Assembly (NCBI GenBank): GCA_027063305.1
Contig: JAMORY010000017.1
Location: 1 to 49,806 of the forward strand
Origin: Sulfurovum sp.
Lineage (GTDB): Bacteria > Campylobacterota > Campylobacteria > Campylobacterales > Sulfurovaceae
Reading direction: 5' to 3'
Length of the DNA: 49,806 nucleotides
The notes under the pieces were generated by a model. That model was not told the origin of the DNA, ran no database searches, and saw only the letters and a list, made by a program, of their open reading frames with translations. This document shows, piece by piece, positions 2,199 to 19,051 of the stretch. A program made the position numbers and the translations under genes. How positions within the stretch are numbered: the stretch's first letter is position 1; every line of letters begins with the position of its first letter.

Positions 2199-4739
2199 AT
2201 GAAAAAAAGTATATTAAGCATACCTGTTGCTATTGCATTATGGGGTAGTGGTCTTTATGCAGGTTCGGTAAATGAAACAGTTTCAGATCAGTTTGATACA
2301 GTGGCTTACGATATAAATGATGGAAGCATAAACTTTTCAGGACGATGGATTGATAGTGAGGATCAAGATGCCGAAAATGGTCAAATCACGATAAACGACT
2401 ATGGTGCATTAAGACTTAAAAATATTGATAGTTATACCATAACAAGAATGTATGACCTTTCACATGCTGTAGGGGACGTTGATCTGAACCTTACTTATAA
2501 GAGAGCAGATGGTGATGAGGTTCTGGATGTTTTACTTTGGGATAACGATAACAGTGAATGGGATATTATTGCTCAGTTGGATCCTAGTGACAATAATTAT
2601 CATGATTTTGGCTATACAATCAGTAAAACCAATCATCCTGAATACTTTTCTACAAATGCTGCAATCCGTTTTGCAGGAGATGATACTTCATGGCAGAATG
2701 ATGATGACTGGAAGATAGGAGAAGTGAAGTTTACAATCCCATATAATGACACAGATGCAGACAGTGTATCAGATGCCAAAGACATTGATAGTGATGGAGA
2801 TGGTATCTTAAATGCTGTAGAGATCCAAGGTAATGAAAGTTGTGGATACGGTTTTTATCAGGTAATCAGCGGTGTATTGTATGTGTATGACCCTGAGCAT
2901 AGTACCTATACCCAAATAGGTGATCAAAAGTTAGACTATAATGCATTAGGTTATGATCTTGATACTGGATCTATGTATGCAACTGTAAGGGAAGATGGAG
3001 AAGATGACTATGGAAATACTCTGTCTACTAATGATATGATCAAGATTGATAGACAAACGGGTAAGATCAAAAAAGTTGGAAGTATAAACTATGGTAGTGC
3101 AGTCGGTGACTTCTATGATGGCAAATTTTACTATGTGGATTCTGCAAACAATAATGATCTTCGTGTTTGGGACCCAAAAACAAATACAGATGATGTATAT
3201 ATTGATGGTGCCGATCTAAACACTGTCTATGATATTGCATTTATGGAAGATCAAAATGGTGATGTGTTTGGTTATGGAATGGGTGGGACTACATTATATC
3301 GTATCGATATGACAGAGAAAAGTGTAACAACAAATGCAACTGATATTGAAGCACCGGTTGATGGTGGTGAACTATCAAATTCATGGGGTGCAGCATTTGT
3401 TGCAAATGATAATGAACTTTTCATCTCAAATAACAATGGATATATCTATCAGATTACAGACTATGATACTGATACCCCAAAAGCAACATTTAAATACCGT
3501 TCAGCATTGACTAACTCAAATGATGGTGCCAGTTGTAGACATAAAAATATGTATGCACCGGACAGTGATGGAGATGGTTTTAAGGATTACCTGGATTTAG
3601 ATAGTGATAATGATGGAATTCCAGATAATATCGAAGCACAATCAACATCTGACTATACAGCCCCGAGCGGTACGGATGATGATAATGATGGTCTAGATGA
3701 TGCCTATGACAGTAATACAAGTGACGTATCTGGAAGCTATGGTCTTGTTCCTTTGGATACAGATGGTGATCATACACCTGACTATGTAGATAGTGATAGT
3801 GATAACGATGGTTATACAGACTGTGAAGAGGGTCATGTCGATGCGGATTGTAACAATATCACAGTAGGTGGTAACGGACTTGCTAGTTGGGCTGATGGGG
3901 ATGATGATGCATATACGGATCCAAACGGGAATGTAAATGATCCGGAAGATGATGGGAATCTTGTTAATGAAACAGGTGATTCGACAGAAGCAGGCTATAG
4001 GGAGTTCCTATGTGGTAATACACAGTTCCAACTTACTGAGTATCAGTGGAGAATGATCAGTGTTCCGTGTAGTACGGGGGATATTGCCATTAAAGACCTC
4101 TTTAGTATGTTGGGTACGTACGGCGATACCAATAACTGGGTTATGTACAAGCAAACCGGGACAACCGACAACTATGAGGTGAATGATACACATAAAAATA
4201 CGGATAAAACACAGCTTGCAGATACCGATACGCTGGAAGTCGGGAAAAGCTATTGGATCATTGCCGATGCAAACCACAGTATTACGATCGATAAAACACT
4301 GAATGGATTGGCTCCAACTTCAGCAGTAAATAGTAGTGATGTTGGGATCAGTGATGATCTTTTCTCTTCTATACATGAAGTAGCCCTTCCTGCAAATAGT
4401 GCAGATAATGAAAAGAAATACATGACTGGGAATGTATTCCCGTATAGATTTGATTTCTCGAAACTCTACTTTAAAAATGAAGATACAGACTATAAACCTA
4501 TGGGAGATACTACAAATGATACGTATGTGCTAGCACGTATCTATACACATGATAGCTCAGATACAAGTGATAAGAATACCAGTGCAGGTGGTGGATATAC
4601 GGTGATCGATCCTGCAACTCCAGGTCTGAGTGAAGGGCAAATTGTACCTATGGAAGGGTTCTTTATGAAGTTTGAAATAGAAAGTAATGAAAAAAACAAT
4701 AAAATTGCATATCCTTTGATGATGCAATATGGAAATTAA
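2199..4739 (+). CDS. Large secreted protein with TSP3-like calcium repeats and propeller-like region
   Basis: This 846-aa protein starts with a Sec signal (MKKSILSIPVAIALWGSGLYAG), with an AGGAG ribosome site upstream. Residues 23-180 look like a beta-sandwich. At about 183-207 and 454-535 there are Asp-rich thrombospondin type-3-like calcium loops (for example DSDGDGILNAVE and DLDSDNDGIPDNIE). Between them (about 210-450) lies a region of short repeated strands of the kind DMIKIDRQTGKIKKVG, resembling a secreted beta-propeller. Residues about 603-846 form a C-terminal module shared with the protein at 5678-7576: W-x-I/M-x-V/IP, D-L/V-F, W-x-x-YK, DTLE-x-G-x-x-YW and a final VPMEGFF. It is probably extracellular or on the cell surface. 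No enzyme motif is seen. Confidence 0.85.
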   Translation: MKKSILSIPVAIALWGSGLYAGSVNETVSDQFDTVAYDINDGSINFSGRWIDSEDQDAENGQITINDYGALRLKNIDSYTITRMYDLSHAVGDVDLNLTYKRADGDEVLDVLLWDNDNSEWDIIAQLDPSDNNYHDFGYTISKTNHPEYFSTNAAIRFAGDDTSWQNDDDWKIGEVKFTIPYNDTDADSVSDAKDIDSDGDGILNAVEIQGNESCGYGFYQVISGVLYVYDPEHSTYTQIGDQKLDYNALGYDLDTGSMYATVREDGEDDYGNTLSTNDMIKIDRQTGKIKKVGSINYGSAVGDFYDGKFYYVDSANNNDLRVWDPKTNTDDVYIDGADLNTVYDIAFMEDQNGDVFGYGMGGTTLYRIDMTEKSVTTNATDIEAPVDGGELSNSWGAAFVANDNELFISNNNGYIYQITDYDTDTPKATFKYRSALTNSNDGASCRHKNMYAPDSDGDGFKDYLDLDSDNDGIPDNIEAQSTSDYTAPSGTDDDNDGLDDAYDSNTSDVSGSYGLVPLDTDGDHTPDYVDSDSDNDGYTDCEEGHVDADCNNITVGGNGLASWADGDDDAYTDPNGNVNDPEDDGNLVNETGDSTEAGYREFLCGNTQFQLTEYQWRMISVPCSTGDIAIKDLFSMLGTYGDTNNWVMYKQTGTTDNYEVNDTHKNTDKTQLADTDTLEVGKSYWIIADANHSITIDKTLNGLAPTSAVNSSDVGISDDLFSSIHEVALPANSADNEKKYMTGNVFPYRFDFSKLYFKNEDTDYKPMGDTTNDTYVLARIYTHDSSDTSDKNTSAGGGYTVIDPATPGLSEGQIVPMEGFFMKFEIESNEKNNKIAYPLMMQYGN

Positions 4740-4749
4740 GGTGGATAAC

Positions 4750-5511
4750 ATGAAAAGAAAAGCTAGATTATTGGGAACAGCTTTACTAATTGGAATAATG
4801 ACAGGATGTGATAGTACTTCTGTAGAAAGCCCGGATACAACAACTGATACGATTGCCCCTGTTACAACAGAGGTGGTAACAAAAAAAGTTGAACCTAGTG
4901 GTTGGTATATGAGAACAGTGGTTAGTGCTGTGAGTGAAGACGGAACAGTCTATTCTCATAACACAGCAGGTGTTTTTGGAGAGTTGGATGAGAGTACGGA
5001 CGGGCTGGACAGACACGATGTTCCTAGCTCCGGGAGTGCGATCATTCAAGTTCGTTTTATCAATGATCAATTTGATGAGGGAGAAGAGTACTACTCGGAC
5101 TACCGTGAGTACAATGCATCCTCATCGAAAAAACAGACATGGACATTCCTTGTTGTAAATGAGATAGAAGAAGATCTCTCTAGTGCAAGATTACAAATAG
5201 GTGTGGAAGCACTAAAAAATGTTTACAGAAAGAGTGATAATACCTACTATGAGACGACATCTACGGATCAGAGTAAAAGAGACAGTCTTGTTCTGATCGA
5301 CCTAGATAATAACCGTACGTATAAATACGAAGAGTTAAAAAATGCTGATCTTTCTATGGATGGCAAAAATACAAGGCAATTTAGATGGGTGTTAAATGGT
5401 GAGGTGGATACACTAGATACCACACCGGTTAACTTGACAAAGTATCAACAGCCGTTTAAAAAGAAAATATATACCTCTTCAACCGACAAGTTCGGTCTTC
5501 CTCCACAATAA
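4750..5511 (+). CDS. Lipoprotein of secreted module 1
   Basis: The start was set at the ATG at 4750, because AAGGTGG lies just upstream and the N-terminus then becomes a lipoprotein signal: MKRKARLLGTALLIGIMTGC, with Cys20 as the lipid anchor. An earlier in-frame ATG at 4729 would add seven polar residues and overlap the previous gene. The protein is 253 aa. After a Thr/Pro-rich linker it has a domain beginning GWYMRT that contains GELDE and ends with SMDGKNTRQFRWVL. The lipoprotein at 7580-8599 shares this domain (NWYMQF, GELD, SMDGKNVRWFEWIL). It is likely inserted in the outer or inner membrane and paired with the large protein upstream. Its function is unknown. Confidence 0.8.
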   Translation: MKRKARLLGTALLIGIMTGCDSTSVESPDTTTDTIAPVTTEVVTKKVEPSGWYMRTVVSAVSEDGTVYSHNTAGVFGELDESTDGLDRHDVPSSGSAIIQVRFINDQFDEGEEYYSDYREYNASSSKKQTWTFLVVNEIEEDLSSARLQIGVEALKNVYRKSDNTYYETTSTDQSKRDSLVLIDLDNNRTYKYEELKNADLSMDGKNTRQFRWVLNGEVDTLDTTPVNLTKYQQPFKKKIYTSSTDKFGLPPQ

Positions 5512-5516
5512 AGATA

Positions 5517-5545
5517 TATCCTAAAGTACAAAGTACTTTAGGATA
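5517..5545. terminator. Perfect 13-bp inverted repeat after module 1
   Basis: TATCCTAAAGTAC and its exact reverse complement flank an AAA loop, 6 nt after the lipoprotein stop codon. There is no T run, so it may act as a factor-assisted terminator or an mRNA-stabilising 3' hairpin. Confidence 0.55.
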
Positions 5546-5633
5546 ACAGAACAATAGATTTATCTATATAACTATGAATTATTATCTAATAATAAAAATT
5601 CTCTACTTTGATATTTTCTATGATATAATTACA

Positions 5634-5651
5634 ATATATTTATGATATAAT
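5634..5651 (+). promoter_or_regulatory. Two overlapping TATAAT candidates for module 2
   Basis: TATAAT occurs at 5634-5639 and again at 5646-5651, as part of a short ATGATATAAT repeat, 27-39 nt before the ATG at 5678. Either could be the -10 box of the second module. Confidence 0.5.
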
Positions 5652-5677
5652 ATAGTATAAAAAGGGAGTGATATATC

Positions 5678-7576
5678 ATGAAACGATTACATCTGGCACT
5701 ATTGAGTCTCTTCTGCTTGCATATGTCTTTATTTGCTTCAACTGTTATTATTGATAACAATGATACACAAGCGATCGATGACAGGACATGTTTTGATGTG
5801 ACCTTTGATATGAATAGCTCCCTTATCCTAACTAATACTAGAATAGATATCAATATTACACATACCTATCGTGCGGACTTGGATATCTCTTTGAAGTCAC
5901 CTTCAGGTACGACGGTCGATCTTACCAGTGATAATGGTGGAGGCAGTGATAATCTCTATGTAATGTTTGAAGATAACGCAACAGAGTCCATTACGGATGA
6001 CAATAGTGACCAGAGCACATTCGTTGCCCGTAAGCCCGAAGGAACGCTCTCTGATTTTAATGATGAAGATGCAGAGGGGACTTGGACACTTACCGTTTGT
6101 GATGATGCCCGTCAAGATACCGGTACTTATTATAATGCTAGACTCTACCTTATCGATACACCTCCGCCACCTGTAGAAACAGGTCTTATGGTCAATTTTT
6201 ATATGGATGAGTGTTATTGGTTGGGTGGTGCGAACGGTGTGGATGATGATGTCATCGATAGCTCCGGAAATGGATTGAATGCACAATCAAGAAATAATGC
6301 GGACAATACGGCAACGAATTCGGTCATATGCCGTGCAGGTGACTTGAACAATACCTATAGTGATGCGGATGAGAGCGATGCTGTATTCTATCCCAATGAA
6401 ACCGATAATGAACTTGATATAGGGAAGAATGCCCCCTTTAGTGTATCGGCATGGCTCTACCGTCACGATGGAGATGATAAGTGGATGGCTGCGGTGATCA
6501 AGGTCAGTGATGAGTCTTGGGATGATGGCTGGGGACTTGTCCATACAAAGGACTCGGGAAATAATATCGACTTCTTTGTCGATGATTACGGCACGTATGC
6601 CAGAACGTCGCTTCAAACGGATAAATGGACACATATTGTAGCGACCTATGACGGTTCGACTATTAAACTCTATAAGAATGGTGACTTGGTTACACAAAAG
6701 AGTCAAGATAGTTATAACTCTGGGGCACATGCAGTGATGGTAGGAGATGACGTCTCAGGGAGTGATATTGATGATCGCTGGCAGGGCGGACTTGATGAAG
6801 TGAAGATATGGGGTCGTGTATTGTCAGATGATGAGGTTAAAGAGATATACGATAATGAGAGTAATGGATTGAACTTCGATGGTACGACCAGAGAGTGTAA
6901 GCAGTGTAACGGCTCTTCGATCGATGCAGATAGTTGGGCGTTTATTGGAATTCCTGTAGACTTTAGAGGTGAGAGTATTACCGTTGATGATGTCTTTGGA
7001 GACGATATGAACGGAACCTATGAAGATGACTGGATATTGTATAAACGTACATATAGTACAACGGATAACAGTAGTGACTATGAAGCATTAGCACTTGATG
7101 ATACGTTGGAGTTCGGTATCGGATATTGGCTTGGAAGCCGTTATGATAATGAATGGTTCGTTGATGGTCAACCAAGTGTTGACTATAATTCAACCAATGA
7201 TGATTGTGTGCGAAGTCCATGTGTAGAAATCGATCTTACACCGGTAACACTTAATTTCGAAGAAGATGAAGATGACGGTTCTGGCCCATATCGATATAAT
7301 ATGAGTGGTTTTATAGGATTGGATAAGCCTGTAGATTGGGCAGATTGTCGATTCATCATTGATGGAACAGCTTATACACCAAGTGATGCGAATGCTTCAG
7401 GATTTGCCAATAAGCAGATCTGGCTCTATAACGGCACAGGAACAGATGCAAGTAATTCATATATTACCTGTGATGATACAATGGATTGTAAGTTGGTTCC
7501 ATTCGAAGGATTCTGGGTTGAATTACACGGGCCAACAAAAGGGAAGACAGTGAAACTGTTGATCCCAAAGGAGTAA
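5678..7576 (+). CDS. Large secreted protein with P-domain and LamG-like domain
   Basis: This 632-aa protein has a Sec signal ending at about residue 21 (CLHMSLFAS) and an AAAGGGAG ribosome site. Residues about 22-165 match a proprotein-convertase P-domain (Homo B): DLDISLKSPSGT, then F-N-D-E-D-A-x-G-T-W-T-L-x-V-x-D and D-T-G-T-Y. No subtilisin-type catalytic domain accompanies it. Residues about 170-400 resemble a concanavalin/LamG-like fold (PFSVSAWLYRHD, WTHIVATYDGS, GGLDEVKIWGRVLSDDE). Residues about 405-632 are the C-terminal module shared with the protein at 2199-4739, ending VPFEGFWVEL. It is probably a surface or extracellular adhesion-type protein. It precedes its own lipoprotein gene by 3 nt. 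Confidence 0.85.
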   Translation: MKRLHLALLSLFCLHMSLFASTVIIDNNDTQAIDDRTCFDVTFDMNSSLILTNTRIDINITHTYRADLDISLKSPSGTTVDLTSDNGGGSDNLYVMFEDNATESITDDNSDQSTFVARKPEGTLSDFNDEDAEGTWTLTVCDDARQDTGTYYNARLYLIDTPPPPVETGLMVNFYMDECYWLGGANGVDDDVIDSSGNGLNAQSRNNADNTATNSVICRAGDLNNTYSDADESDAVFYPNETDNELDIGKNAPFSVSAWLYRHDGDDKWMAAVIKVSDESWDDGWGLVHTKDSGNNIDFFVDDYGTYARTSLQTDKWTHIVATYDGSTIKLYKNGDLVTQKSQDSYNSGAHAVMVGDDVSGSDIDDRWQGGLDEVKIWGRVLSDDEVKEIYDNESNGLNFDGTTRECKQCNGSSIDADSWAFIGIPVDFRGESITVDDVFGDDMNGTYEDDWILYKRTYSTTDNSSDYEALALDDTLEFGIGYWLGSRYDNEWFVDGQPSVDYNSTNDDCVRSPCVEIDLTPVTLNFEEDEDDGSGPYRYNMSGFIGLDKPVDWADCRFIIDGTAYTPSDANASGFANKQIWLYNGTGTDASNSYITCDDTMDCKLVPFEGFWVELHGPTKGKTVKLLIPKE

Positions 7577-7579
7577 GGG

Positions 7580-8599
7580 ATGAAAAGATATATCGTATTA
7601 AGTCTATCCGTACTGAGCCTGATTGGATGTGGTAGTGTTGAAGAGGAACCTGTACCACAACCTGAAGTAGTGAACGATACAGTTACGATTGTAGATGGAA
7701 ACAGTACTAGGATCGATGTGTTGGCAAATGACATGGTTAATGATTGTACTAGTGCGAAAGTGGTCTTGATGACACCCCCTAAAGAGGGGAATGCTACAAT
7801 TGTGGATAATAAGGTTACATATATACCTAGTGCCGGTTTTTCTGGTAAAGACAGTTTTACATACTGTGTCGAAACAAGAGGTACAGTGTGTAGTAAAGAA
7901 GCGCAGGTTATGATAACGGTAGAACAACCTTTAGTGAAAAGAACAATGCGTGAAATATTGAGGGATCCGAAGAACTGGTATATGCAGTTTTATGCAAAAA
8001 ACCTTGATAGTGCACAGCTATATCGTGGTGTGAAGGTGGGTGAACTGGATAAAGGGACAACTACAAAGAATTACTCATTAAAGGCATTCTCGGGATCAGG
8101 CTACCCTTATATCAAGATCACTGCGGTTGATGCGGATGGAGAGATAGCAGGAAGCTTTACAACTTTTTATAGACCCTATACTGAGATAGAGAATGAAAAA
8201 AGATGGCGTTTTAAGGTAGAGGTAAGCCAGACAGATGCTCTTGTAGAACTGGGGTGGCAAGGGCTTTATGTTCTGAATCCATATGTAGACAGAACGGGAA
8301 GAGAACGTTTTAAAGAAAATATTGTTTTACAGCATCCGTTACTGAAACGTATGAAGCTGATCGATACGGAGAACGGGGAAGAGATATCTGCGATCTATAA
8401 CGGATACTTACAAAAATATAGGTTTTCAATGGATGGCAAAAACGTACGTTGGTTTGAATGGATTTTAGAGAGTGAAGATATTGCACCGTCAACACAGAAG
8501 GTGCTCTTTAAAATAGAGAAGAAACGTCAACTCTTAAAGGTATGGAAAAATACGTTTGATCCTAAAAAGCCTCCTGTTACAGGATTGCAACATGAGTGA
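7580..8599 (+). CDS. Lipoprotein of secreted module 2 with Ig/cadherin-like repeat
   Basis: The 339-aa product has a clear lipoprotein signal, MKRYIVLSLSVLSLIGC, with Cys17 as anchor. Residues about 35-115 form a tandem-95/bacterial Ig-like repeat: DVLANDM, then YIPSAGFSGKDSFTYCVE. The rest begins NWYMQFY and contains GELDKG and SMDGKNVRWFEWIL, the domain shared with the lipoprotein at 4750-5511. Only this copy has the Ig-like insert. The gene starts 3 nt after the large protein and overlaps the following Tat-signal peptide gene by 8 nt, so the three are translationally linked. Its function is unknown. Confidence 0.8.
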   Translation: MKRYIVLSLSVLSLIGCGSVEEEPVPQPEVVNDTVTIVDGNSTRIDVLANDMVNDCTSAKVVLMTPPKEGNATIVDNKVTYIPSAGFSGKDSFTYCVETRGTVCSKEAQVMITVEQPLVKRTMREILRDPKNWYMQFYAKNLDSAQLYRGVKVGELDKGTTTKNYSLKAFSGSGYPYIKITAVDADGEIAGSFTTFYRPYTEIENEKRWRFKVEVSQTDALVELGWQGLYVLNPYVDRTGRERFKENIVLQHPLLKRMKLIDTENGEEISAIYNGYLQKYRFSMDGKNVRWFEWILESEDIAPSTQKVLFKIEKKRQLLKVWKNTFDPKKPPVTGLQHE

Positions 8600-8844: not shown

Positions 8845-11181
8845 ATGGGGCAGTGGAGAGAGTGGGATGTGAATAGATCGGAAGAGATAGATATGAAGGT
8901 GTTGCTTTTATCTTTAATGGAGTATCGCCGTTCTATCTTTTTTGTAGTAGTTGTTACAACGCTGATCTCTGCATATATCGCGTATTTCAAACCTTCCATA
9001 TATAGTGCTGAGACACTTGTTAAGATCACTTCAGAACGGCAAGGATATTATGAAGACTTTTTAATGGTCGCCCCGGTAGGACAGAATGGGGAGATCGATG
9101 ATGATCTTATTGTTTTTAAGAGTAGACCGATAGCAGAGAGAGTACTAAAAAAACTCAACCTTGGTACGCGCTACTATACAAAAAAGCGTTTACGTACGCT
9201 TGAACTCTATAAAAATACACCTTTTACGGTTAGCTATACCTATCTATCCCCAGATATCTATGGGGTCCCTTTTTTAATCGTACCTGTAGATAAGGAGCAT
9301 TTTCGCCTTGAGCTTAAAGAACACCCCTCCAGTATTGTAGATATACTTCTAGCGTATATATTTGAACCATCTTCGGAGAAAACTAAAGGTAAGGTTTATA
9401 CATATGATACGACTATCCAAAATGAGCTTTTTACTCTGCAAGTACATAAAGTATATGATCTTTCCCAAAGAGAGTATTGGTTTACAATGGTCCCCAATGA
9501 GAGAATGGTCAACTTTGTGCAAAGTGGGATCTCCGCCTCGACCATAACGAAGTTTGGAAGTATCGTTTCGTTAAAGTTCTATGATACGGTGCCAAGTCGT
9601 GCGGCAGAGATCATCAATCAGGTGGCAGAAGCGTATATAGAGCAGAATTTGGAACTAAAGTCAAAAGGGGCGAAAAAGCAACTTTACTTTATAGATATGC
9701 AGTTGGATGCGATCAATAAAACATTGAAAGGATCAGCAGAAAAGCTGCAAAAATATAAAGCCACCAACATAGTTGTGAACCTTTCAGAGAAAGCACAGTT
9801 GACAGCCAACAAGTTGAGTGGATATGAGAGTAAGCTCTATACGGTCAATATGCAACTTGAGATAGCAGAGAGTATGTTAATGCATATTATACAGCAGAAG
9901 AGTACGACAATGTTCAGTCTGGACTATGGACAGAGTGATAATGTCGTTATCAATAATCTTTTGGAGAAGATCCAAAAAGCAATGACAAAATATGCGGCAC
10001 TCTCTGCTAAATATACAGAAAAACACCCGGGTGTGATCACATTGAAAAAAGAGTTACGTTTTTTACGAGAGTCTTTGATCAAGACACTTCAAAGCCATAT
10101 TGCAACGCTCAAAAAAGAGAAGATCCATCTTCAACAAGTGATCGAGGAGCAGCAAAGGCGTTTACAGGAAGTACCAAAACAAGAACAGCAGCTTGAGCAA
10201 TTAAGCAGACACTTTATGGTGAATGAAAAGATCTACTCCTATCTGCTTGAAAAAAGAGCAGAGACCGCTATCTTGGCATCTTCAACGATCTCAAATACCC
10301 ATATCGTCCAAAAAGCTTTAGCTCCTTATTATCCTGTTAAACCAAAGCGAAAGCTTTATGTCTTTATTGGCTTTTTGATAGGAATAATATTAGGTGTTCT
10401 TCAAGCACTGATTAGAAACTTTTTGGATAATACCATCAAATCTAATGAGGATATTGAGAAATTAACGGATATACCCATTTATGGGACGTTACCTATTATA
10501 AAAGAGAAGAAAGGGCTTTCTGCCTATATGGAAGCGGTTCGTTCTTTATGGGTCAATCTTGCTTTTGTTCGGGGAAAGGGAAAGAGCAAGGTTGTTTCGA
10601 GCACTTCCAATATTTCGGGAGAAGGGAAGACCTTTACCATATACCATTTAGGAAAGATGATCGCAAAAAGCAGTGAAGATCGTGTTGTGATACTGGATAT
10701 GGATATGCGCAGAGCAACACTGCATAAAAAATTTGGAATAACAAACGATCATATAGGTGCTAGTACGGTTCTTAGCGGTGCACACACCATAAAAGAGGCT
10801 ATTAGACATACAGATATACCAAATCTCGACCTTATTTTAAGTGGTCCTAAAGCGCCTAACCCGACACGCCTTATTATGTCTGATGCATTTGATGATATGC
10901 TGATTGAACTTAGCAAAGAGTATGATCATATTTTAATCGATACACCACCTATCGGGATTGTATCGGATGCGATGAAGATCATGCATGCTTCAGATCTTGT
11001 GTTATTTATTATAAAGGCGGAGTATTCAAAAAAAGAGTTCATTCAAACGATCAACCGCTTAAACAAAAAAGAAGAGATCAACCTGGGGATCGTACTTAAT
11101 GGTGTGGATTACGAGAAGTCCTATTACTATTATGGGTATGGTTACCAATATACTTCAGATGAGTACTATTTGGAGAGGTAG
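8845..11181 (+). CDS. Wzz-type chain-length regulator fused to BY-kinase
   Basis: This 778-aa inner-membrane polysaccharide co-polymerase has a cytoplasmic tyrosine-kinase domain. The first membrane segment is at about residues 30-48, a periplasmic Wzz region with long coiled coils spans about 50-500, and a second membrane segment is at about 508-530. The C-terminal BY-kinase domain has Walker A (SGEGKTFT, near 590), Walker A' (ILDMDMR, near 617) and Walker B (ILIDTPPIG, near 695). It ends in a Tyr-rich tail (KSYYYYGYGYQY) that serves as the autophosphorylation cluster in this family. An ATG at 8893 with GGAAGAG upstream could also be the start, shortening the protein by 16 residues. No wzx, wzy or glycosyltransferase genes are nearby, so its polysaccharide pathway lies elsewhere. 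Confidence 0.9.
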   Translation: MGQWREWDVNRSEEIDMKVLLLSLMEYRRSIFFVVVVTTLISAYIAYFKPSIYSAETLVKITSERQGYYEDFLMVAPVGQNGEIDDDLIVFKSRPIAERVLKKLNLGTRYYTKKRLRTLELYKNTPFTVSYTYLSPDIYGVPFLIVPVDKEHFRLELKEHPSSIVDILLAYIFEPSSEKTKGKVYTYDTTIQNELFTLQVHKVYDLSQREYWFTMVPNERMVNFVQSGISASTITKFGSIVSLKFYDTVPSRAAEIINQVAEAYIEQNLELKSKGAKKQLYFIDMQLDAINKTLKGSAEKLQKYKATNIVVNLSEKAQLTANKLSGYESKLYTVNMQLEIAESMLMHIIQQKSTTMFSLDYGQSDNVVINNLLEKIQKAMTKYAALSAKYTEKHPGVITLKKELRFLRESLIKTLQSHIATLKKEKIHLQQVIEEQQRRLQEVPKQEQQLEQLSRHFMVNEKIYSYLLEKRAETAILASSTISNTHIVQKALAPYYPVKPKRKLYVFIGFLIGIILGVLQALIRNFLDNTIKSNEDIEKLTDIPIYGTLPIIKEKKGLSAYMEAVRSLWVNLAFVRGKGKSKVVSSTSNISGEGKTFTIYHLGKMIAKSSEDRVVILDMDMRRATLHKKFGITNDHIGASTVLSGAHTIKEAIRHTDIPNLDLILSGPKAPNPTRLIMSDAFDDMLIELSKEYDHILIDTPPIGIVSDAMKIMHASDLVLFIIKAEYSKKEFIQTINRLNKKEEINLGIVLNGVDYEKSYYYYGYGYQYTSDEYYLER

Positions 11182-11249: not shown

Positions 11250-13010
11250 TTGGCAATATATACGTATCGTACGCTCTACCAAGAAGTACGTCGCCTACAT
11301 AAGGATTTTTGGAAAACAAATATCTATGGTCTGATAGGAACACTCCTTCTCTTGCCTGTTCCTATTTTTTTCCCCTTTTTGATCGATGAGGTTCTTCTTG
11401 CCCATCCTGGAAAGCTTACACACTACCTCTGGCCATTGACAGGAGGCTCGATATGGGTTATGGTACTTATTGTATTTATCATTGTGATGGGATTGAGGAT
11501 AGTTGCATTTGTTATCAATAATAAAAAAAGTTTTTATGCAACAAAGATATCGCAACATATAGCATATCGTTTAAGGGTACAAATTCTTGAGCATTTAAAA
11601 AGAGTCTCCATGAGAGAGTATGAGGTTTTAAGATCCGGAGCGATCACAACGAAGACGCTACAAGATGTTGAAACACTTGCTTCATTTGCTTCGAGTGCAG
11701 TCACTACAGCATTAAGTGCAGGAGTTATGTTGTTAGGGATCACTATTATTCTGATCTCAATGAATTGGATGTTGGCACTGCTTATTTTATTATTAAATCC
11801 ATTTGTGGTCCTTTTTTCTAAAATTCTGGGACGAAAAGTGGCCAAACTCTTAAAGCAAAAACATGAGGCTTATCAGATCTATCAAGAGATGATACATGAG
11901 ACGATAGAGTTGTTCGTTCAAGTGCGTGCTTCAAATAGAGAAGAGCATTTCTTTGAGTGCTTGAAAACATATGCAAAGAGAATCGAAGAGAGTAGTATAT
12001 CGTTTGGTTATCAAGCGTCTGTAGTAAGAAGTGCGTCCACCTTGATGGTCATGGGTATGACCGATATTGTTCGGGCGTTAGGTATCATTGCCGTTGCATA
12101 TAGCGATCTTACTTTAGGGATGATGATCGCTTTTTTATTTTATCTCTCTACGCTCTCTACACCTATTCAACAACTGATGGGATTGATCTTGCACTATCAA
12201 CGTACAGAGCCTGCACTGGAGAGGATCAATACACTTTTAACATTAGAGCGTGAACCTGATCATCCAACTCAAGTAAACCCCTTTTCCCAAAAAGGAAGTG
12301 TTTCTATTGAAATGAAAGATATCTCTTTTGGTTATCTTGCGGATCATGAGATCCTCCATAGTGTCAGTCTGTATGCATCTGAGGGAGAGACCATTGCATT
12401 AATAGGGAAAAGTGGTAGTGGGAAAACTACATTGGCACAACTTTTAGTCGGCTTCTATCAGCCTTGGAAAGGTCAGATATATTATGGAAGCACACCCATA
12501 ACGTCCATTGGTCTTACATGTGTACGGGAGCATGTATCTTACATGCTTCAACAAACACTTTTTTTTAACGATACGGTACGTATGAACTTGACACTTGAGC
12601 GTGACTTTTCAGATGAGCAGATATGGAAGGCTTTAGAAGAAGCACAATTAGATACATTTGTAGGGGCACTTCCCGAAGGCTTGGATACACGCATAGGAAA
12701 GAATGGGATCCGTCTTTCCGGAGGTCAACGGCAGCGGTTAGCGATCGCTAGACTGATCCTTTCTGATCCTCAAGTCGTTATTTTCGATGAAGCGACATCT
12801 GCTTTGGACAATAGTACGGAATATGCATTATATGAGACATTGGCTCCGTTTCTAAGGGGGCGTACCGTGATCATTATCGCACACCGTACTATGACGATCA
12901 AACAGGCGGATCGTATCTATGTGATCGATAATGGCCATGTTAAAGCAGAGGGTACATACGAGTCGCTTAGTGAAAAAGGGATGATCGTGGAGGATTTTGA
13001 TGTTTCGTAA
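11250..13010 (+). CDS. ABC exporter of the lasso-peptide locus (D protein)
   Basis: This 586-aa half-transporter has the membrane domain (about 1-320) fused to the ATPase (about 345-586). Walker A is GKSGSGKTT (near 386), the signature is LSGGQRQRLAIARL (near 488), and Walker B is VVIFDEATSALD (near 508). There is no N-terminal C39 peptidase, so it does not remove the leader itself. This fits lasso D proteins, which export mature peptide and give self-immunity. The start is TTG, supported by GAGGGG upstream; no in-frame ATG is better placed. It overlaps the B2 gene by 11 nt. MsbA-like lipid export is the main alternative, but the context favours peptide export. Confidence 0.85.
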   Translation: MAIYTYRTLYQEVRRLHKDFWKTNIYGLIGTLLLLPVPIFFPFLIDEVLLAHPGKLTHYLWPLTGGSIWVMVLIVFIIVMGLRIVAFVINNKKSFYATKISQHIAYRLRVQILEHLKRVSMREYEVLRSGAITTKTLQDVETLASFASSAVTTALSAGVMLLGITIILISMNWMLALLILLLNPFVVLFSKILGRKVAKLLKQKHEAYQIYQEMIHETIELFVQVRASNREEHFFECLKTYAKRIEESSISFGYQASVVRSASTLMVMGMTDIVRALGIIAVAYSDLTLGMMIAFLFYLSTLSTPIQQLMGLILHYQRTEPALERINTLLTLEREPDHPTQVNPFSQKGSVSIEMKDISFGYLADHEILHSVSLYASEGETIALIGKSGSGKTTLAQLLVGFYQPWKGQIYYGSTPITSIGLTCVREHVSYMLQQTLFFNDTVRMNLTLERDFSDEQIWKALEEAQLDTFVGALPEGLDTRIGKNGIRLSGGQRQRLAIARLILSDPQVVIFDEATSALDNSTEYALYETLAPFLRGRTVIIIAHRTMTIKQADRIYVIDNGHVKAEGTYESLSEKGMIVEDFDVS

Positions 13011-13473
13011 GCTCAAACGGTTCAGTATGCTTTCCTCGAAGGAGCGGATATTGTTTGTGGAAGCTTATATATATACTGGTATCTACCGTTTATCGTTATT
13101 GGTATTATCCTTTAAGTTCCTAACACGTACGCTTGAGCAGTATAAACCTGGAGAGAAAGTCCCTTCTTTGAGCGGTTTTCAAAAAGATGAAGCGAAGATG
13201 ATCGGAGAAATAGTAGAGAAAGCTGCTATGAACACACCGTGGCAGAGTGCATGTCTTGTACAAGCCTTAAGTGCGCAAAAAATGTTACGGTGCCGTAACA
13301 TCCCCGGTTTTTTTGCACTTGGTGTCAGAAAAGATAAAGATAAGATGAAAGCACATGCCTGGACATTGTGTGATGATATGGTCATTACCGGTAGATTAGG
13401 GTATGAGAGCTTTACGGTCGTCTCTCTTTTTGGTTGGCAGGTATTACACGATAGCAAGCAGGAGAGTACATGA
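13000..13473 (+). CDS. Lasso peptide biosynthesis B2 protein (leader peptidase)
   Basis: This 157-aa protein has a transglutaminase-like cysteine-protease fold that removes the leader peptide before cyclisation. The family hallmark WQSACLVQAL holds the catalytic Cys85. It is followed by KMLRCRNIPGFFALGV and by KAHAWTL with the catalytic His119; an Asp pair at 125-126 supplies the third residue. The ATG at 13000 has GGAGGA at good spacing and is preferred over a TTG one codon earlier. The gene overlaps both neighbours, 11 nt with the exporter gene and 4 nt (ATGA) with the kinase gene, which indicates translational coupling. B1 is not fused here; a separate PqqD-like gene lies at 18767. Confidence 0.9.
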   Translation: MFRKLKRFSMLSSKERILFVEAYIYTGIYRLSLLVLSFKFLTRTLEQYKPGEKVPSLSGFQKDEAKMIGEIVEKAAMNTPWQSACLVQALSAQKMLRCRNIPGFFALGVRKDKDKMKAHAWTLCDDMVITGRLGYESFTVVSLFGWQVLHDSKQEST

Positions 13474-14375
13474 AAAGCAATATACATCAATATACGATCT
13501 TTGGAACGGAGATACGATCAGATATTCCTTTCCCTCTGCAACTTCCTTCTTCATCGCAGACACGGTATATGCTTACACTGTCTTCAGATGTACCCTCTTT
13601 TTTTCATGAAGCGATCAGTTGTGGCTTTTTGCTTTATCGTGCACATGGAAGAAGTGTGAGACTTTACTCCAACAGAGAGTTTGCAGGAGAAAGCTTTAAG
13701 GATCAACCGTGGTGCTATGAAGTTGAAGGAGTGGGATCTTTTTATTGGAAAGGAGGGGGGGGAAGTATCTATTATGATTTTGGAGAAAGTCCAGATACGC
13801 ATCTTCTCTCTTTTTGGTTCATTCACCTTATGTTACCGTTCTTCTTCGCACTTGAAAAGAGATATGAGATGTTCCATGGAGGAGCGGTTCTGATAGAGGG
13901 GAAAGCCGTTATGTTCTGTGCCCCCTCCATGGGTGGTAAATCTACAATGACAGACTATTTTATTCAAAAGGAACATACGCTTATCTCTGATGACAAGATT
14001 CCTATGATCGTAGAAAATGGACAATTCATGCTTACGGGAAGTCACCCTTATCATCGTCCTTACCGTAAGTTTGAAGATCTGGGATATCGAGTATCTGACT
14101 TCCTTGATAGCTATCTACCACTTCATGCCATGTACATTTTGGAAAAAAGTGAACATAATGCCCCGATAACGATAGAAGAGGTAAGAGGGTTTGGAAAATT
14201 CAATGCGATGCTCCCTCATTATCTATTCTCTTTTCCTTCCCAAAAACAGTATAGAATGACCTGTCTTTCGAAGTTATTAAATAAAATCCGCGTATTTAGA
14301 GTCTATCGGCCTTGGAATATTTCACGTCTTTCTGAGGTATATACATCAATTGTTGAACATAGTAAAACTCTTTGA
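13470..14375 (+). CDS. HprK-like tailoring kinase 1 (contains G8 tract)
   Basis: This 301-aa protein belongs to the HPr-kinase-like P-loop proteins found in RiPP clusters. The P-loop APSMGGKST lies at about residues 150-158, and LISDDKIP about 20 residues later is the acidic strand. In paeninodin-type clusters such a kinase phosphorylates the C-terminal Ser of the precursor, and the precursor here ends in Ser. A run of eight G at 13755-13762 encodes part of KGGGGS near residue 97; losing or gaining one G would break the frame. The paralogue at 17755-18651 has no such run at the aligned site. Expression is coupled to B2 through an ATGA overlap. Confidence 0.82.
   Translation: MKSNIHQYTIFGTEIRSDIPFPLQLPSSSQTRYMLTLSSDVPSFFHEAISCGFLLYRAHGRSVRLYSNREFAGESFKDQPWCYEVEGVGSFYWKGGGGSIYYDFGESPDTHLLSFWFIHLMLPFFFALEKRYEMFHGGAVLIEGKAVMFCAPSMGGKSTMTDYFIQKEHTLISDDKIPMIVENGQFMLTGSHPYHRPYRKFEDLGYRVSDFLDSYLPLHAMYILEKSEHNAPITIEEVRGFGKFNAMLPHYLFSFPSQKQYRMTCLSKLLNKIRVFRVYRPWNISRLSEVYTSIVEHSKTL
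13755..13762 (+). repeat. G8 homopolymer inside the kinase gene
   Basis: Eight consecutive G form codons for Gly in the kinase at 13470-14375. Poly-G tracts of this kind are the known contingency-locus switches of Campylobacter and Helicobacter. Eight is at the low end of the lengths usually reported as variable. Confidence 0.85.
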
Positions 14376-14453: not shown

Positions 14454-14526
14454 ACATGCATAAACGCTACAAAGGAAGGGGGGAGTCCTTACTTTGATGC
14501 GTCTCTGGTTGATGTTTTCAAACAGA

Positions 14527-14599
14527 AATGCCAAACCCGTTGTGAAGCGGGGACGGAAAGCCACGGGTCTCAGGGGGGAGACAGCCGGGTTGCCTCATT
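14527..14599 (+). ncRNA. Cyclic di-GMP-I (GEMM-I) riboswitch aptamer, copy 1
   Basis: The element opens with GCCAAACC, followed by a hairpin with arms CCCGTT and AGCGGG around the GNRA loop GTGA. Next come the conserved GACGGAAAGCC core and a second stem, and it ends GCCGGGTTGCC. AATG at 14527-14530 can pair with CATT at 14596-14599 as P1. This order matches the c-di-GMP-I class, including the tetraloop that docks into the second stem. The G in GCCAAA fits c-di-GMP preference over the cGAMP-selective variant, though this is not proof. The expression platform could not be assigned. Confidence 0.9.
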
Positions 14600-14619
14600 G
14601 TTCAACTTTTACATTTCAG

Positions 14620-14690
14620 AAAAGCCAAACTTGATGCGAATCAGGGACGGAAAGCTACGGGTCTCAAGCAGACGGCCGGGTTGCCTCAAT
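14620..14690 (+). ncRNA. Cyclic di-GMP-I (GEMM-I) riboswitch aptamer, copy 2
   Basis: This is a second complete aptamer about 20 nt after the first: GCCAAAC, arms CTTGAT and ATCAGG around the GNRA loop GCGA, the core GGACGGAAAGC, a GTCT/AGAC-closed second stem and GGCCGGGTTGCC. The two copies differ in the stems but keep pairing, so both are probably functional. It ends about 34 nt before the ATG at 14724, close enough to influence translation initiation. No T-tract terminator lies between it and the gene. Confidence 0.9.
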
Positions 14691-14723
14691 CATAGAACAT
14701 TCAATAAACAAAGGAAGAATGGA

Positions 14724-16145
14724 ATGAATAGAAAAGTCTTTTTAAGTCTGGTTGCAAGTATGGTTGTCGCAGGAACACAAGCAAATGCATTTGGATTTGG
14801 TGGTATGAGTGGTAACAACTCTACAACTACTAGTGGTACTACAGGTAACATGGCTGGTGCTTCAAATGGTATGGGAGGAAGTGTTCAGTATGGTATGAAT
14901 GCAAACGGAGGCTATATCTGTATAGATGGTTTCAGCCCTATGGGTGGTGGAAGCATGGCGATGAGTTATGGTTCTGCTAGTGGATGTGGTGCAGATGACT
15001 TTGACTTCTACTACAAAACATTTGGTGGGTTTATAGAAGAGAGTTCAGAGTATAACTCTCCAAATATGCATCCAGGTAAAGATGATACAACTCAGGATGG
15101 TTTCTGGTGGAGAGAGGGTAAATTCTCTGCAAATGTTTACTATGGTGATATGGAAAATGACGGTAAAAGATACGCCGATGATCCAAACGGGGCATACCCA
15201 GCATGGACTTGGGGACACCCTGAAAAAGCACCATTTGTAAGTGAAGATGGTGCAGGTGATGATATAGGTGGTTCTAACGGTATAGGACTTGGTGGATTTG
15301 GTATGGGTGAAGGAAACAAACTCAAAGCTGGTGATACAGATACATTTTATCCACTTAACTTCATAGAAGTGAACAACTACAAAAATAGCTTTGTTGGTAC
15401 ACACTCTTCAGATGTAAGCTGGAATGTAGCTATCTATGACAAAGACCACAATGAAGTGTTCAAGAAGAACTATACTACTACTATGTATTATTGGGAAACA
15501 ATTAACTTCCAAAGAGATAGCTGGGGGCTGATCTGTCCAAGAAGCAGTGTTGATGCAGGTGAAGTGGTAAATGATCTTGCTTATGATACTGCGGTACATG
15601 AAAATATCTTAAGTGGATGGCCAGCATATGGTCTGGATATTGATTTTAAAGGTGATGGTGTTACTGATGCTGTTGCTTGTGCGGATGCAATGAAGATCAA
15701 AGATACTAGTATGACAGATACATTTACTGTAAGTAAAAAGATGATGGGTATGACTATCCCTGGTAGTGAGAAAGAGTATCAGCTTAGCTTTGATGGTCCA
15801 TACATCTATGATGCTAGCAAAGAGGGATGTCCAGCAGTAAATGAACAAGGATTACCAAATACAACAGACAAATGGCCAGCAGAGTGTTTCCAAAAAGTTG
15901 ATACTATCTGGACAGATGAAGAGAGTAAAACTAGAGCATTTATGCGTATGAGTGTTACAGAGGTAGAAGATGACAACTGTGGTATCAAGATGCCTGAAAT
16001 GCCTTGTAATATGGAGCTTCCTATGGAAGAAAAAGTAAAATCAACTATTAATAATATGATGCAAAAATGTAATACTACATTAGAACAAGCACAACAAGCT
16101 GTAGAAGATGCACAAGATTGTGATATGCCTGAATTGAGAGGATAA
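14724..16145 (+). CDS. Large secreted protein of unknown function, riboswitch-controlled
   Basis: The start was set at the ATG at 14724, where AAAGGAAG lies upstream and a Sec signal begins: MNRKVFLSLVASMVVAGTQA, with likely cleavage after NA at residue 22. An open frame extends upstream, but only by reading through aptamer 2. The mature protein (about 451 aa) starts with a Gly/Met/Ser/Thr-rich low-complexity stretch (residues about 23-90). It continues as an acidic, aromatic-rich region with scattered Cys (among others CGADDFDFYY, WGLICPRSS, CADAMKIKD) and ends in a Cys-containing helical tail. I do not recognise a family. Its stop codon is 6 nt before the precursor gene, whose ribosome site lies inside this gene, so the two are surely co-transcribed. 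It could be a matrix or surface protein. Confidence 0.85.
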   Translation: MNRKVFLSLVASMVVAGTQANAFGFGGMSGNNSTTTSGTTGNMAGASNGMGGSVQYGMNANGGYICIDGFSPMGGGSMAMSYGSASGCGADDFDFYYKTFGGFIEESSEYNSPNMHPGKDDTTQDGFWWREGKFSANVYYGDMENDGKRYADDPNGAYPAWTWGHPEKAPFVSEDGAGDDIGGSNGIGLGGFGMGEGNKLKAGDTDTFYPLNFIEVNNYKNSFVGTHSSDVSWNVAIYDKDHNEVFKKNYTTTMYYWETINFQRDSWGLICPRSSVDAGEVVNDLAYDTAVHENILSGWPAYGLDIDFKGDGVTDAVACADAMKIKDTSMTDTFTVSKKMMGMTIPGSEKEYQLSFDGPYIYDASKEGCPAVNEQGLPNTTDKWPAECFQKVDTIWTDEESKTRAFMRMSVTEVEDDNCGIKMPEMPCNMELPMEEKVKSTINNMMQKCNTTLEQAQQAVEDAQDCDMPELRG

Positions 16146-16279: not shown

Positions 16280-17740
16280 GTGTATTACTCTATAAAAGCA
16301 AATAAGCATATAATATCTAAAAATATGGGAGAGCTTTTAAAGCTCTCTTCCATCTCTGTCAATATTTGTGCTGTGCAAGATTTTTTATGGCATGGTACAA
16401 TTCAGCCTGATGCTACCATGTATCAGAATATTTATAAAGTTCCTCATGGACATATCCTAAAAGATGATGGAACTCTTACTTCAAAAATAGATTATACTTC
16501 TATATCTATTGATAATCATATTTCCTTTCAAGATGCTTCTGTTAAGTTTCGACAGCTCTTTGAAGATGCTACACAAAACCTCATAGATACTTCTAAGATG
16601 ATAGGGTGTCAGCTTAGTGGAGGATTTGATTCTAGTTCTGTATATGGTATAGCTACTAAATATACAGATAATATCATCGCGTTAAGTATGGACTTTTCTC
16701 ATCCTTCATGTGATGAAAGAGACTATGTAGATGCTGTGATGAAATTTCATGGATATAAGACTGATATTATAAGAAAGGATTGTACAGCACTGGATTATAA
16801 GTATAGATATAATATGAAATGGAATTATGATTTAAATCCACATTGGCCTATATGGGTAACTTTTACAATGTTGGCTCCACTTATGGAAGCTGTCAGAGAA
16901 AACAACATAGATACAGTACTTACAGGTCAGGTAGGAGATCATACCTTGGCAGGAAATCAAGCTAGTATCATCAATCATCTTTATCGTGGTAAGATAAGTG
17001 ACTTTGCAAGGGAAGTTAGTTATCTTAAACATCCAAAAAGATATATACAAAGACATTTCAAAAATAAACTCAAAGATAAGATAGGTGAAGCTAGTTTTAA
17101 CCGTTTAAAAATGCTTTTGGGTAAATCTGTGATACAGCCTAGTTGTGAAGAAGTATTTGGAGAGAAAGTACCTTCTCGTTCATTTGTAGATATTGTAGAT
17201 AGAAAGACTTTTAAATGGGAAGATCAAGCAAGAATTGTATATTCTTTAACATCTTCTTTTTTTCATATGAGTAGATATAGTAGTTTTTCAAATGCAGTAT
17301 ATGAAAAGTATGGTATCAAATTTGTTTCACCTTTTGAAGATGAAGAGTTGATCAAGTTTATGTTGAGTGTACCACCTGAGTATCGTTATAGTATGGGTAA
17401 CAACCGACATCTTCATGCACATGCGATGAAAGATGTCTTACCTCCTAAAGTGTTGAACCGTAGAGATAAAGCAGAGTTTAGTGTTATAGTTCGTCAACAG
17501 ATAGATGCGATAGATAGAGAGAAGCTTTGGCAAGATCCTACTTTGGTAAAAATGGGATTGATAAAACTTGAAACTATCAAAGCACATGAAGAAGCTTATA
17601 TAGGTGGTAAAATGAAACCACGAGATTTCAATCGCTATTGGCGTATGATAAATATAGAGTATTGGTATGCACTTAATCCATATCTTGATAAGTCTGAATT
17701 TGCTCCAAACCCTTATGTGTTAGAAAGCTGTAAAGATTAA
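16280..17740 (+). CDS. Lasso macrolactam synthetase (C protein, asparagine-synthetase-like)
   Basis: This 486-aa enzyme would activate the ring Asp by adenylation and close the Gly1-Asp8 amide. The ATP-pyrophosphatase loop SGGFDSSS is at residues 113-120, and QVGDHTLAGNQ and SPFEDEELIKFM are other typical stretches of the AsnB synthetase domain. The N-terminal region is short and has no Cys at position 2, so the glutaminase half is not functional, as in lasso C proteins. The start is GTG, 2 nt after the precursor stop codon. Codons are AT-rich compared with the core genes downstream, which suggests acquisition. A primary-metabolism AsnB is unlikely given the missing Cys and the context. Confidence 0.88.
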   Translation: MYYSIKANKHIISKNMGELLKLSSISVNICAVQDFLWHGTIQPDATMYQNIYKVPHGHILKDDGTLTSKIDYTSISIDNHISFQDASVKFRQLFEDATQNLIDTSKMIGCQLSGGFDSSSVYGIATKYTDNIIALSMDFSHPSCDERDYVDAVMKFHGYKTDIIRKDCTALDYKYRYNMKWNYDLNPHWPIWVTFTMLAPLMEAVRENNIDTVLTGQVGDHTLAGNQASIINHLYRGKISDFAREVSYLKHPKRYIQRHFKNKLKDKIGEASFNRLKMLLGKSVIQPSCEEVFGEKVPSRSFVDIVDRKTFKWEDQARIVYSLTSSFFHMSRYSSFSNAVYEKYGIKFVSPFEDEELIKFMLSVPPEYRYSMGNNRHLHAHAMKDVLPPKVLNRRDKAEFSVIVRQQIDAIDREKLWQDPTLVKMGLIKLETIKAHEEAYIGGKMKPRDFNRYWRMINIEYWYALNPYLDKSEFAPNPYVLESCKD

Positions 17741-17754
17741 ATATCTTAAATACT

Positions 17755-18651
17755 TTAATATAGACTATTGATATGCCTTTTGATCGTTTGATAGCTTTCT
17801 TCTAAGTATGCCTTTCCCCACGGACGGTCGATCACGAAAAAAGGTATGATGTTCAGTAGTCTTCCTAGGTAAGCCTCATGGTCGAGACGAAAACTTTTAA
17901 GTGTGTAGATAAGACTGTTCTTTCGTACAAGGGTAAATTTCTCGATGCCTTCAAGGGCTCTTATGGTTGTTTCTGTCGTTTCTGAATGGTTCTGTAAAAT
18001 GTAGACTGCATCGATCTTTCCAAAAGTGTTTTTAAAGTGTTCTACTTTGTCTCCAAGGGTCTGTATCTGTCTAAAAGGGCGGGAGAAGGGGTGAGAAGGG
18101 GCATAGTGAAGGGTATCGTTCTCGATCCATGTGGGGAGTATGTCATCTGCAATAAGCCGATACCCTTTTTCTTGAGAGAGGTAGTACGTGAGGGTTGATT
18201 TTCCGCTGTTGTACGGAGCGAGGAAGAGAATGGACCTGCCTTCGATCTCAACGGCACTTCCGTGTAGGAGCGTATAGTACTTCTCCATACTTAAAAAAAG
18301 TGGGAAAAAGGTGTGTACGAACCAGAAATCAAAATCTTCCGAAGCCGTATCGATGATCTCATAGTAGAGTGTGGTATCTTTATAATACCAGTAGAAGCGG
18401 AGCTTCCCTTCCACTTCGTAACAGAGCGGTTGTTTGGCAGTAAGTGGTTTGTTGATGCTTTTGTTACTGTAAAGAAAGATACGGTGCTTGTGGGTAGTGT
18501 GCAGATATGTACCGCAGGTGAAAGATGCTTTTAATGAGGTGGGGGGTATCGCCTTGAGGGTAAGGGTTTTTTTGAAAGGAGATGTCTTTGGAAAGGGTAG
18601 AGAGAATGCTCTGTCACTGATGATACGAATGCCGTAAATTACCAAAACCAT
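17755..18651 (-). CDS. HprK-like tailoring kinase 2
   Basis: This 298-aa paralogue of the kinase at 13470 shares LCYEVEG, FYWY, the P-loop APYNSGKST (about residues 140-150), LIADDILPTW, and RPFRQIQTLGDKV (RPYRKFEDLGYRV in the other). It is encoded convergently with the C gene, ending 14 nt from it. The ATG at 18651 lies directly against its AAAAGGA sequence. A TTG two codons later is better spaced and may be the real start. There is no G tract. It may phosphorylate the same precursor at another site, a different substrate, or stand in when kinase 1 is phased off. Confidence 0.8.
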   Translation of the reverse strand: MVLVIYGIRIISDRAFSLPFPKTSPFKKTLTLKAIPPTSLKASFTCGTYLHTTHKHRIFLYSNKSINKPLTAKQPLCYEVEGKLRFYWYYKDTTLYYEIIDTASEDFDFWFVHTFFPLFLSMEKYYTLLHGSAVEIEGRSILFLAPYNSGKSTLTYYLSQEKGYRLIADDILPTWIENDTLHYAPSHPFSRPFRQIQTLGDKVEHFKNTFGKIDAVYILQNHSETTETTIRALEGIEKFTLVRKNSLIYTLKSFRLDHEAYLGRLLNIIPFFVIDRPWGKAYLEESYQTIKRHINSLY

Positions 18652-18736: not shown

Positions 18737-18766
18737 TTATAGGATAAATTGAATCGTAAGGATAAG

Positions 18767-19051
18767 ATGTTGGATATCACACAAAAAGTTACATTCGCAG
18801 ATACGATCTTCGCTCAGGAGGTGGACGGAGAGATGGTTCTGCTTGATATGGAGAGTGAGAACTATTTTGGGCTTGATGCTGTCGGAACGGATATTTGGCA
18901 GCAGATCGAAACGCATGAAGGAGACTTGCAGAAAGTATTTGATGCGCTGTTGCAGATGTATGAAGTGGATGAGGAGAGATTGAGACAGGATCTTCTTACA
19001 TTTGTAGAAAGACTTACGCAAAGCGGACTGGTCAAGGTCGTAGCAGCGTGA
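18767..19051 (+). CDS. PqqD-like RiPP recognition element (lasso B1 protein)
   Basis: This 94-aa PqqD-family protein would bind the YxxPxL leader and present the precursor to B2. The pattern [25 protein letters not shown] is the beta-hairpin and winged-helix start typical of the family, and a helical C-terminus follows. The ATG at 18767 has AAGGA at good spacing and is preferred over a TTG at 18749. The gene is separated from B2 by more than 5 kb, and its end overlaps the rsmG start by 4 nt (GTGA), so it is co-transcribed with a housekeeping gene. Alternatively it belongs to an HprK/PqqD pair together with the divergent kinase 2. Confidence 0.85.

Follow-up and report, generated by a model that had tools for sequence, protein, structure and literature searches.

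Tandem cyclic di-GMP-I riboswitches ahead of a secreted protein and a lasso-type precursor in Sulfurovum, with related riboswitches at other lasso-type loci of Sulfurovaceae

The locus

The stretch of DNA analyzed here, hereafter the window, comprises 49,806 nt of Sulfurovum sp. and lies on a single contig (contig 17) of the 2.03-Mb Campylobacterota genome G000. Two aptamers of the c-di-GMP-I class are followed by genes for a secreted protein, a lasso-type precursor and a cyclase (Table 1), in agreement with the first-pass annotation, which had placed the aptamers ahead of a secreted protein and a lasso precursor. The three genes are tightly packed, with gaps of 6 nt between secreted protein and precursor and 2 nt between precursor and cyclase, and the ribosome-binding region of the precursor overlaps the 3′ end of the secreted-protein gene. 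No terminator-like sites were found between the aptamers and the precursor. The genes for the ABC exporter, the B2 leader peptidase and a kinase-like protein lie 5′ of the riboswitch and are therefore not under it.

Table 1. Features around the tandem aptamers, in positions of the window
Feature	Position	Strand	Basis
ABC exporter	11250..13010	+	PF00664, PF00005
Lasso B2 leader peptidase	12997..13473	+	NF033537 82.4 bits, cut-off 33
HPr-kinase-like protein, presumed precursor kinase	13470..14375	+	weak PF07475 below cut-off; GGKS...SDD motif
Predicted 5′ leader hairpin, ACGC..GCGU stem with CAAAG/CUUUG	14463..14507	+	RNA fold
c-di-GMP-I aptamer 1	14522..14598	+	RF03167 64.4 bits, E 5e-13; RF01051 66.3 bits
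17-nt linker between aptamers	14599..14615	+	sequence; gap between Rfam bounds
c-di-GMP-I aptamer 2	14616..14689	+	RF03167 59.9 bits, E 1e-11; RF01051 59.4 bits
Presumed expression platform	14690..14727	+	RNA fold; no better than shuffled sequence
Secreted protein of 473 aa, signal peptide recognized by eye	14724..16145	+	no Pfam/NCBIfam match
Lasso-type precursor, 41 aa	16152..16277	+	sequence; motifs as in PMC10368454
Cyclase, asparagine-synthase family	16280..17740	+	PF00733 1.4e-31; NF033535 1.4e-35, below curated cut-off
Second HPr-kinase-like protein	17755..18651	-	weak PF07475 and TIGR04352, below cut-off
B1, PqqD-like recognition protein	18749..19051	+	PF05402 63.9 bits (cut-off 23.4)

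Lasso precursors are marked by a YxxPxL leader motif, Thr at position -2 and an acidic residue at core position 7-9 (PMC10368454). The window precursor, MEEVKKSYNTPKLNKIDVRLHTLGGGEVNTDSEGLEGGTAS, matches no Pfam or NCBIfam model; its leader (YNTPKL...HTL) has the YxxPxL motif and the Thr at -2, and its predicted core, GGGEVNTDSEGLEGGTAS, offers Asp8 as ring acceptor and ends in Ser. The cyclase has a clear Asn_synthase domain, and its best NCBIfam match is the lasso cyclase model NF033535, from model position 147 onward, so that the N-terminal glutaminase-like domain found in other lasso cyclases appears to be missing. The same seems true of a cyclase at a Nitratifractor locus described below (L204:11455-12702), and both start right after the precursor. 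B1 scores 58.1 bits with NF033536, below the cut-off of 80.

Farther upstream the window holds a series of large genes for secreted proteins or lipoproteins that have adhesin-like features (2199-8599), and a Wzc-like polysaccharide kinase (8845-11181) stands between this series and the lasso genes. G000 encodes enzymes of c-di-GMP metabolism (20 GGDEF and 10 EAL matches). Elsewhere in this genome, c-di-GMP-I riboswitches precede PAS-domain-like (aerotaxis-like) sensor genes on two contigs (C14:89881-89959 and C28:78592-78668).

The tandem aptamers

A covariance-model search, which the first-pass annotation had proposed as a check on its call of two complete aptamers, matched both copies at full length and above cut-off with two Rfam models (cmscan; RF01051, 66.3 and 59.4 bits against 35; RF03167, cut-off 59 bits); aptamer 2 clears RF03167 barely and RF01051 by a wide margin. 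The details of that call, a GNRA-capped hairpin, core and closing strand in each copy, are found as described: the P2 loops are GTGA and GCGA, the cores GGGACGGAAAGC and the closing strands GGGTTGCC. The two aptamers do lie close together, with a spacing between Rfam bounds of 17 nt rather than the 20 or so first given. Within the linker, TACATTTCAGAAA is common to the window and to a triple aptamer array of a third genus (L237), and TACATTTCAGAAAA, around the linker 3′ end, resembles the linker of that array.

The best Rfam label of both aptamers is the "GGC" variant model (RF03167). The columns that we matched to G20, A47 and C92 of Vc2 hold G, A and C in both copies, as is usual for c-di-GMP aptamers; the match of Rfam columns to Vc2 numbering is itself inferred. 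The mark of the variant, which we infer from the family name and consensus to be G at position 47, is absent, both copies having A there, so the label follows from the score, and the pocket does not bear it out. The window RNA is an ordinary member of the c-di-GMP-I class. That its ligand is c-di-GMP rather than cGAMP is inferred from these putative pocket residues, without binding data.

The stems had also been described as paired while varying in sequence, and covariation among 26 aptamers of the family upholds this. Both partners had changed in 12 of 21 pairs, where shuffles gave 7.4, and such changes occupied 65 cells (23 ± 4 when shuffled); slid structures scored far lower. Pairing is kept in 98% of cells in P2 and 98.5% in P3; P1 is weak, pairing in 50% of aligned cells.

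The secreted-protein family

Searches with the window protein alone found no homologues in 60 other genomes of the genus or about 400 of the class, nor in phage, plasmid and viral collections, and its AlphaFold2 model has a mean pLDDT of only 50. Its apparent orphan status was overturned when homologues were reached through a lasso locus of another genus, that of Nitratifractor sp. S013_45 (L204). Here a c-di-GMP-I aptamer (10028-10101, 64.3 bits) precedes a homologue that is 54% identical and starts at 10137, followed by a lasso-like precursor of 36 aa ending ...KSTKASPTGENFDATDWKASS and by the cyclase, from 11455; the order riboswitch, secreted protein, precursor, cyclase is thus the same as in the window. 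The third genus (genome G518, locus L237) has two paralogues, one behind three near-identical aptamers with a 103-nt period and the other behind a single aptamer. All four family members known from the 175 family genomes searched therefore stand behind one to three c-di-GMP-I aptamers. One L237 paralogue (G518:C204, 1609-3627) carries KHGSK repeats and weakly matches the His-Xaa-Ser protein HxsA4, a likeness that hints at another peptide-modification system.

Riboswitches at other B2 loci

The association extends beyond the one locus to which the first-pass annotation was confined. A search of 78 genomes of GTDB Sulfurovum with NF033537 yielded 24 B2 genes, and c-di-GMP-I aptamers lie near 11 of them, the window and 10 of the 23 others. 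The 320 kb of these loci hold 20 aptamers; at the density seen across the genus, 3.5 per Mb (251 aptamers in about 71 Mb), roughly 1.1 would be expected. Because this background figure was taken from only 37 genomes, scanned under stricter settings, the enrichment may be inflated somewhat, and loci that are related do not count as independent samples. On the B2 tree the riboswitch state is found on several branches with 5 changes, at least two of which are forced by well-supported branches.

The placement of the riboswitches varies. Seven stand before an operon of ABC exporter, B2 and kinase (L058, L063, L065, L070, L072, L073 and L076), with a short open frame coming first in L070 and L073. 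Others are directly 5′ of a precursor, lasso-like and of 59 aa in L066 and of about 54 aa in L073. Tandem aptamers precede a secreted S8 subtilisin-like protease between B1 and cyclase in L058 (3600-4739), L063 and L065, and large secreted proteins follow riboswitches in L064 and L075. B2 loci outside the family (Desulfocapsa, Clostridium, Chloroflexi, Gammaproteobacteria and others) had no c-di-GMP-I aptamer, and their sole other riboswitch is a fluoride switch at L195.

Just three of the precursors read, from the window, L066 and L204, obey the lasso ring rule; judged by their sequences, the rest may be another RiPP type. Precursor-like minus-strand genes at L058:4806-4990 and L073:6776-6958, near B1, B2 and kinase, have a YxxPxL-type leader and no acidic residue at core position 7-9, and their putative products may not be lasso peptides.

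In a group of aptamers the inner loop is a variant that departs from GCCAAACC..GGGACGG and reads GCUACACC..GGGUCAG or GCCACACC..GGGCCGG; the A-to-C and A-to-U/C changes occur together. These aptamers are L058:9941-10039, L063:10180-10278, L065:10267-10363, L064:15173-15271, L072:10271-10349, L076:6149-6249, L075:1877-1975 and L082:3306-3404, and such aptamers stand before most of the ABC operons and some secreted-protein genes.

Expression platform and direction of control

A terminator-based platform was rejected for the window, where no terminator was found. Strong pairing against the ribosome-binding site was not found there either; the duplex of aptamer tail and ribosome-binding site is predicted at -2.8 kcal/mol. 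Predicted folds allow pairing between the tail (14690-14693) and the start codon region (14724-14727), and they include a hairpin (14698-14702/14717-14721) whose loop carries the Shine-Dalgarno sequence AAAGGAA; the ATG is at 14724. The start-codon hairpin has z = -0.2 against shuffled sequence, and forcing the aptamer fold left the predicted accessibility unchanged. The 10-mer ACAAAGGAAG of the stable leader hairpin is the same 10-mer as the ribosome-binding region at 14708-14717, and the 3′ arm of this hairpin could pair with that region instead.

A comparison of leaders took in about 100 riboswitches, almost all from the same genus; 36 of them have a short gap to the start codon. In these the aptamer 3′ strand forms stronger pairs with the ribosome-binding region of its own leader than with regions taken from other loci (mean -5.1 vs. 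-4.5 kcal/mol, n = 36, permutation p = 0.009). L064, L072, L073 and L065 are the strong cases; examples are GCCUAU/AUAGGC in L064, GUUGCC/GGCAAC in L072, and ACCUA/UAGGU in L058 as against GCCUA/UAGGC in L065. L073 forms a 10-pair hairpin with z = -6.1, and the G518 triple array has z = -3.2. On these predicted pairings the platform is probably translational. Pairing of the 3′ strand with the ribosome-binding site or start codon in relatives predicts an ON switch, and we lean toward that direction, which is inferred, with some but limited confidence; in the window itself the direction is unsettled because the tail pairing is weak.

Proposed mechanism and alternatives

We propose, with a probability of roughly three in four, that a tandem c-di-GMP-I riboswitch, likely ON, controls the operon of secreted protein, lasso-type precursor and cyclase, and that the peptide is probably tied to the sessile state; binding, control and direction are all inferred. 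Binding of c-di-GMP would alter translation of the secreted-protein gene, and the tight packing of the operon would pass the change on to precursor and cyclase. In the absence of ligand, the aptamer 3′ strand would be available for pairing with the ribosome-binding site or start codon; once c-di-GMP is bound, that strand would be kept within the aptamer and the start site left open, and two aptamers would make the response sharper. The same logic would be in use at many RiPP loci of Sulfurovaceae, with peptide production probably tied to a high-c-di-GMP sessile state. The synteny in Nitratifractor and the riboswitch enrichment at lasso loci both speak for control of the peptide genes, and with it for the first-pass inference that c-di-GMP governs this transcript.

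The same riboswitch and targets might instead work as an OFF switch, with expression in the low-c-di-GMP motile state. We think this unlikely, while granting it more room than any other alternative: the window lacks both a terminator and convincing anti-RBS pairing, the start-codon pairing is compatible with the aptamer core in folds, and OFF-type class I switches exist (Cd1, PMC9262584); what speaks for ON is that in relatives the aptamer 3′ strand pairs with the ribosome-binding site or start codon beyond permuted partners. Slightly less credible is a riboswitch that serves the secreted protein alone, precursor and cyclase being expressed from their own signals. Translational control need not extend to downstream genes, and all four members of the protein family are riboswitch-led, two of them on a short contig where no lasso gene was found. 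Against this stand the short gaps and the overlap of the precursor's ribosome-binding region with the first gene, the gene order kept in another genus, and the riboswitches right before a precursor (L066, L073) or before the ABC operon (seven loci).

It is improbable that the aptamers sense 3′,3′-cGAMP or are non-binding relics. The variant model gives the best Rfam label, but the equivalent of Vc2 G20 is G, where cGAMP variants have A, the two remaining pocket columns hold A and C, and the stems are intact and covary in the family. Chance closeness of a common riboswitch to a common peptide locus can be nearly dismissed: c-di-GMP-I aptamers are indeed abundant in the genus (251 in about 71 Mb), but they occur at 10 of the 23 B2 loci besides the window, when about 1 such locus would be expected, an excess that relatedness weakens and does not remove, and placement right before lasso genes is repeated.

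We retain control of the whole operon by a c-di-GMP riboswitch as the preferred reading. The recurrence of these sensors at about half of the lasso-type loci in relatives suggests that peptide output is tied to the switch between swimming and settling. A broader proposal, for which we see even odds, is that Sulfurovaceae have a c-di-GMP riboswitch regulon that repeatedly captures lasso and lasso-like RiPP loci through the precursor, the exporter operon or a companion secreted protein, the peptides being sessile-state products and secreted protein and peptide acting together outside the cell.

To our knowledge, the roles of lasso peptides for their producers are mostly unknown and their regulation has been described for few. 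A second-messenger riboswitch found repeatedly before lasso loci makes a direct, testable statement on the timing of peptide production and offers a route to turn silent loci on; a c-di-GMP-I aptamer adjoining B2 can also serve as a search rule for similar loci.

Comparison with known systems

What appears to be new is the regulatory link that connects the riboswitch with lasso loci and with a new family of secreted proteins. We found no papers on c-di-GMP or riboswitch control of a lasso locus, in a search that did not reach many subscription journals, and the sources that bring lasso peptides together with riboswitches or c-di-GMP, judged by title, abstract and counts, yielded co-mentions only. 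The aptamers themselves share fold, GNRA loop, core, pocket residues and tandem copies with c-di-GMP-I (GEMM-I) riboswitches (RF01051/RF03167), for which tandem copies are common (347 doublets and 12 triplets; PMC9481103); the window differs in its target, a lasso-peptide operon, in having no terminator and in its seemingly translational platform. The triple-tandem Bc3-5 of Bacillus thuringiensis, with its more digital ON response (PMC4759541), likewise has several complete class I aptamers in one leader. In Bc3-5 each copy has its own expression platform and a csp mRNA is controlled by transcription read-through (PMC4759541), whereas the window shows no terminators and has just its last aptamer next to the start codon. 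The GEMM-I riboswitch of Geobacter metallireducens pilM is an ON switch in which aptamer and repressing folds are mutually exclusive (PMC9262584), the logic proposed for the window; unlike the window it senses cGAMP and acts by transcription termination (PMC9262584).

In gene content the window matches the phosphorylated proteobacterial lasso loci with split B1/B2, cyclase and kinase (e.g., bsf; PMC10368454), and shares with them the YxxPxL leader, the acidic residue at core position 7-9 and the C-terminal Ser as a possible phosphosite (PMC10368454). It is set apart from bsf-type loci by its riboswitch control, its extra secreted protein, a cyclase that seems to be without the N-terminal domain and two kinase-like genes.
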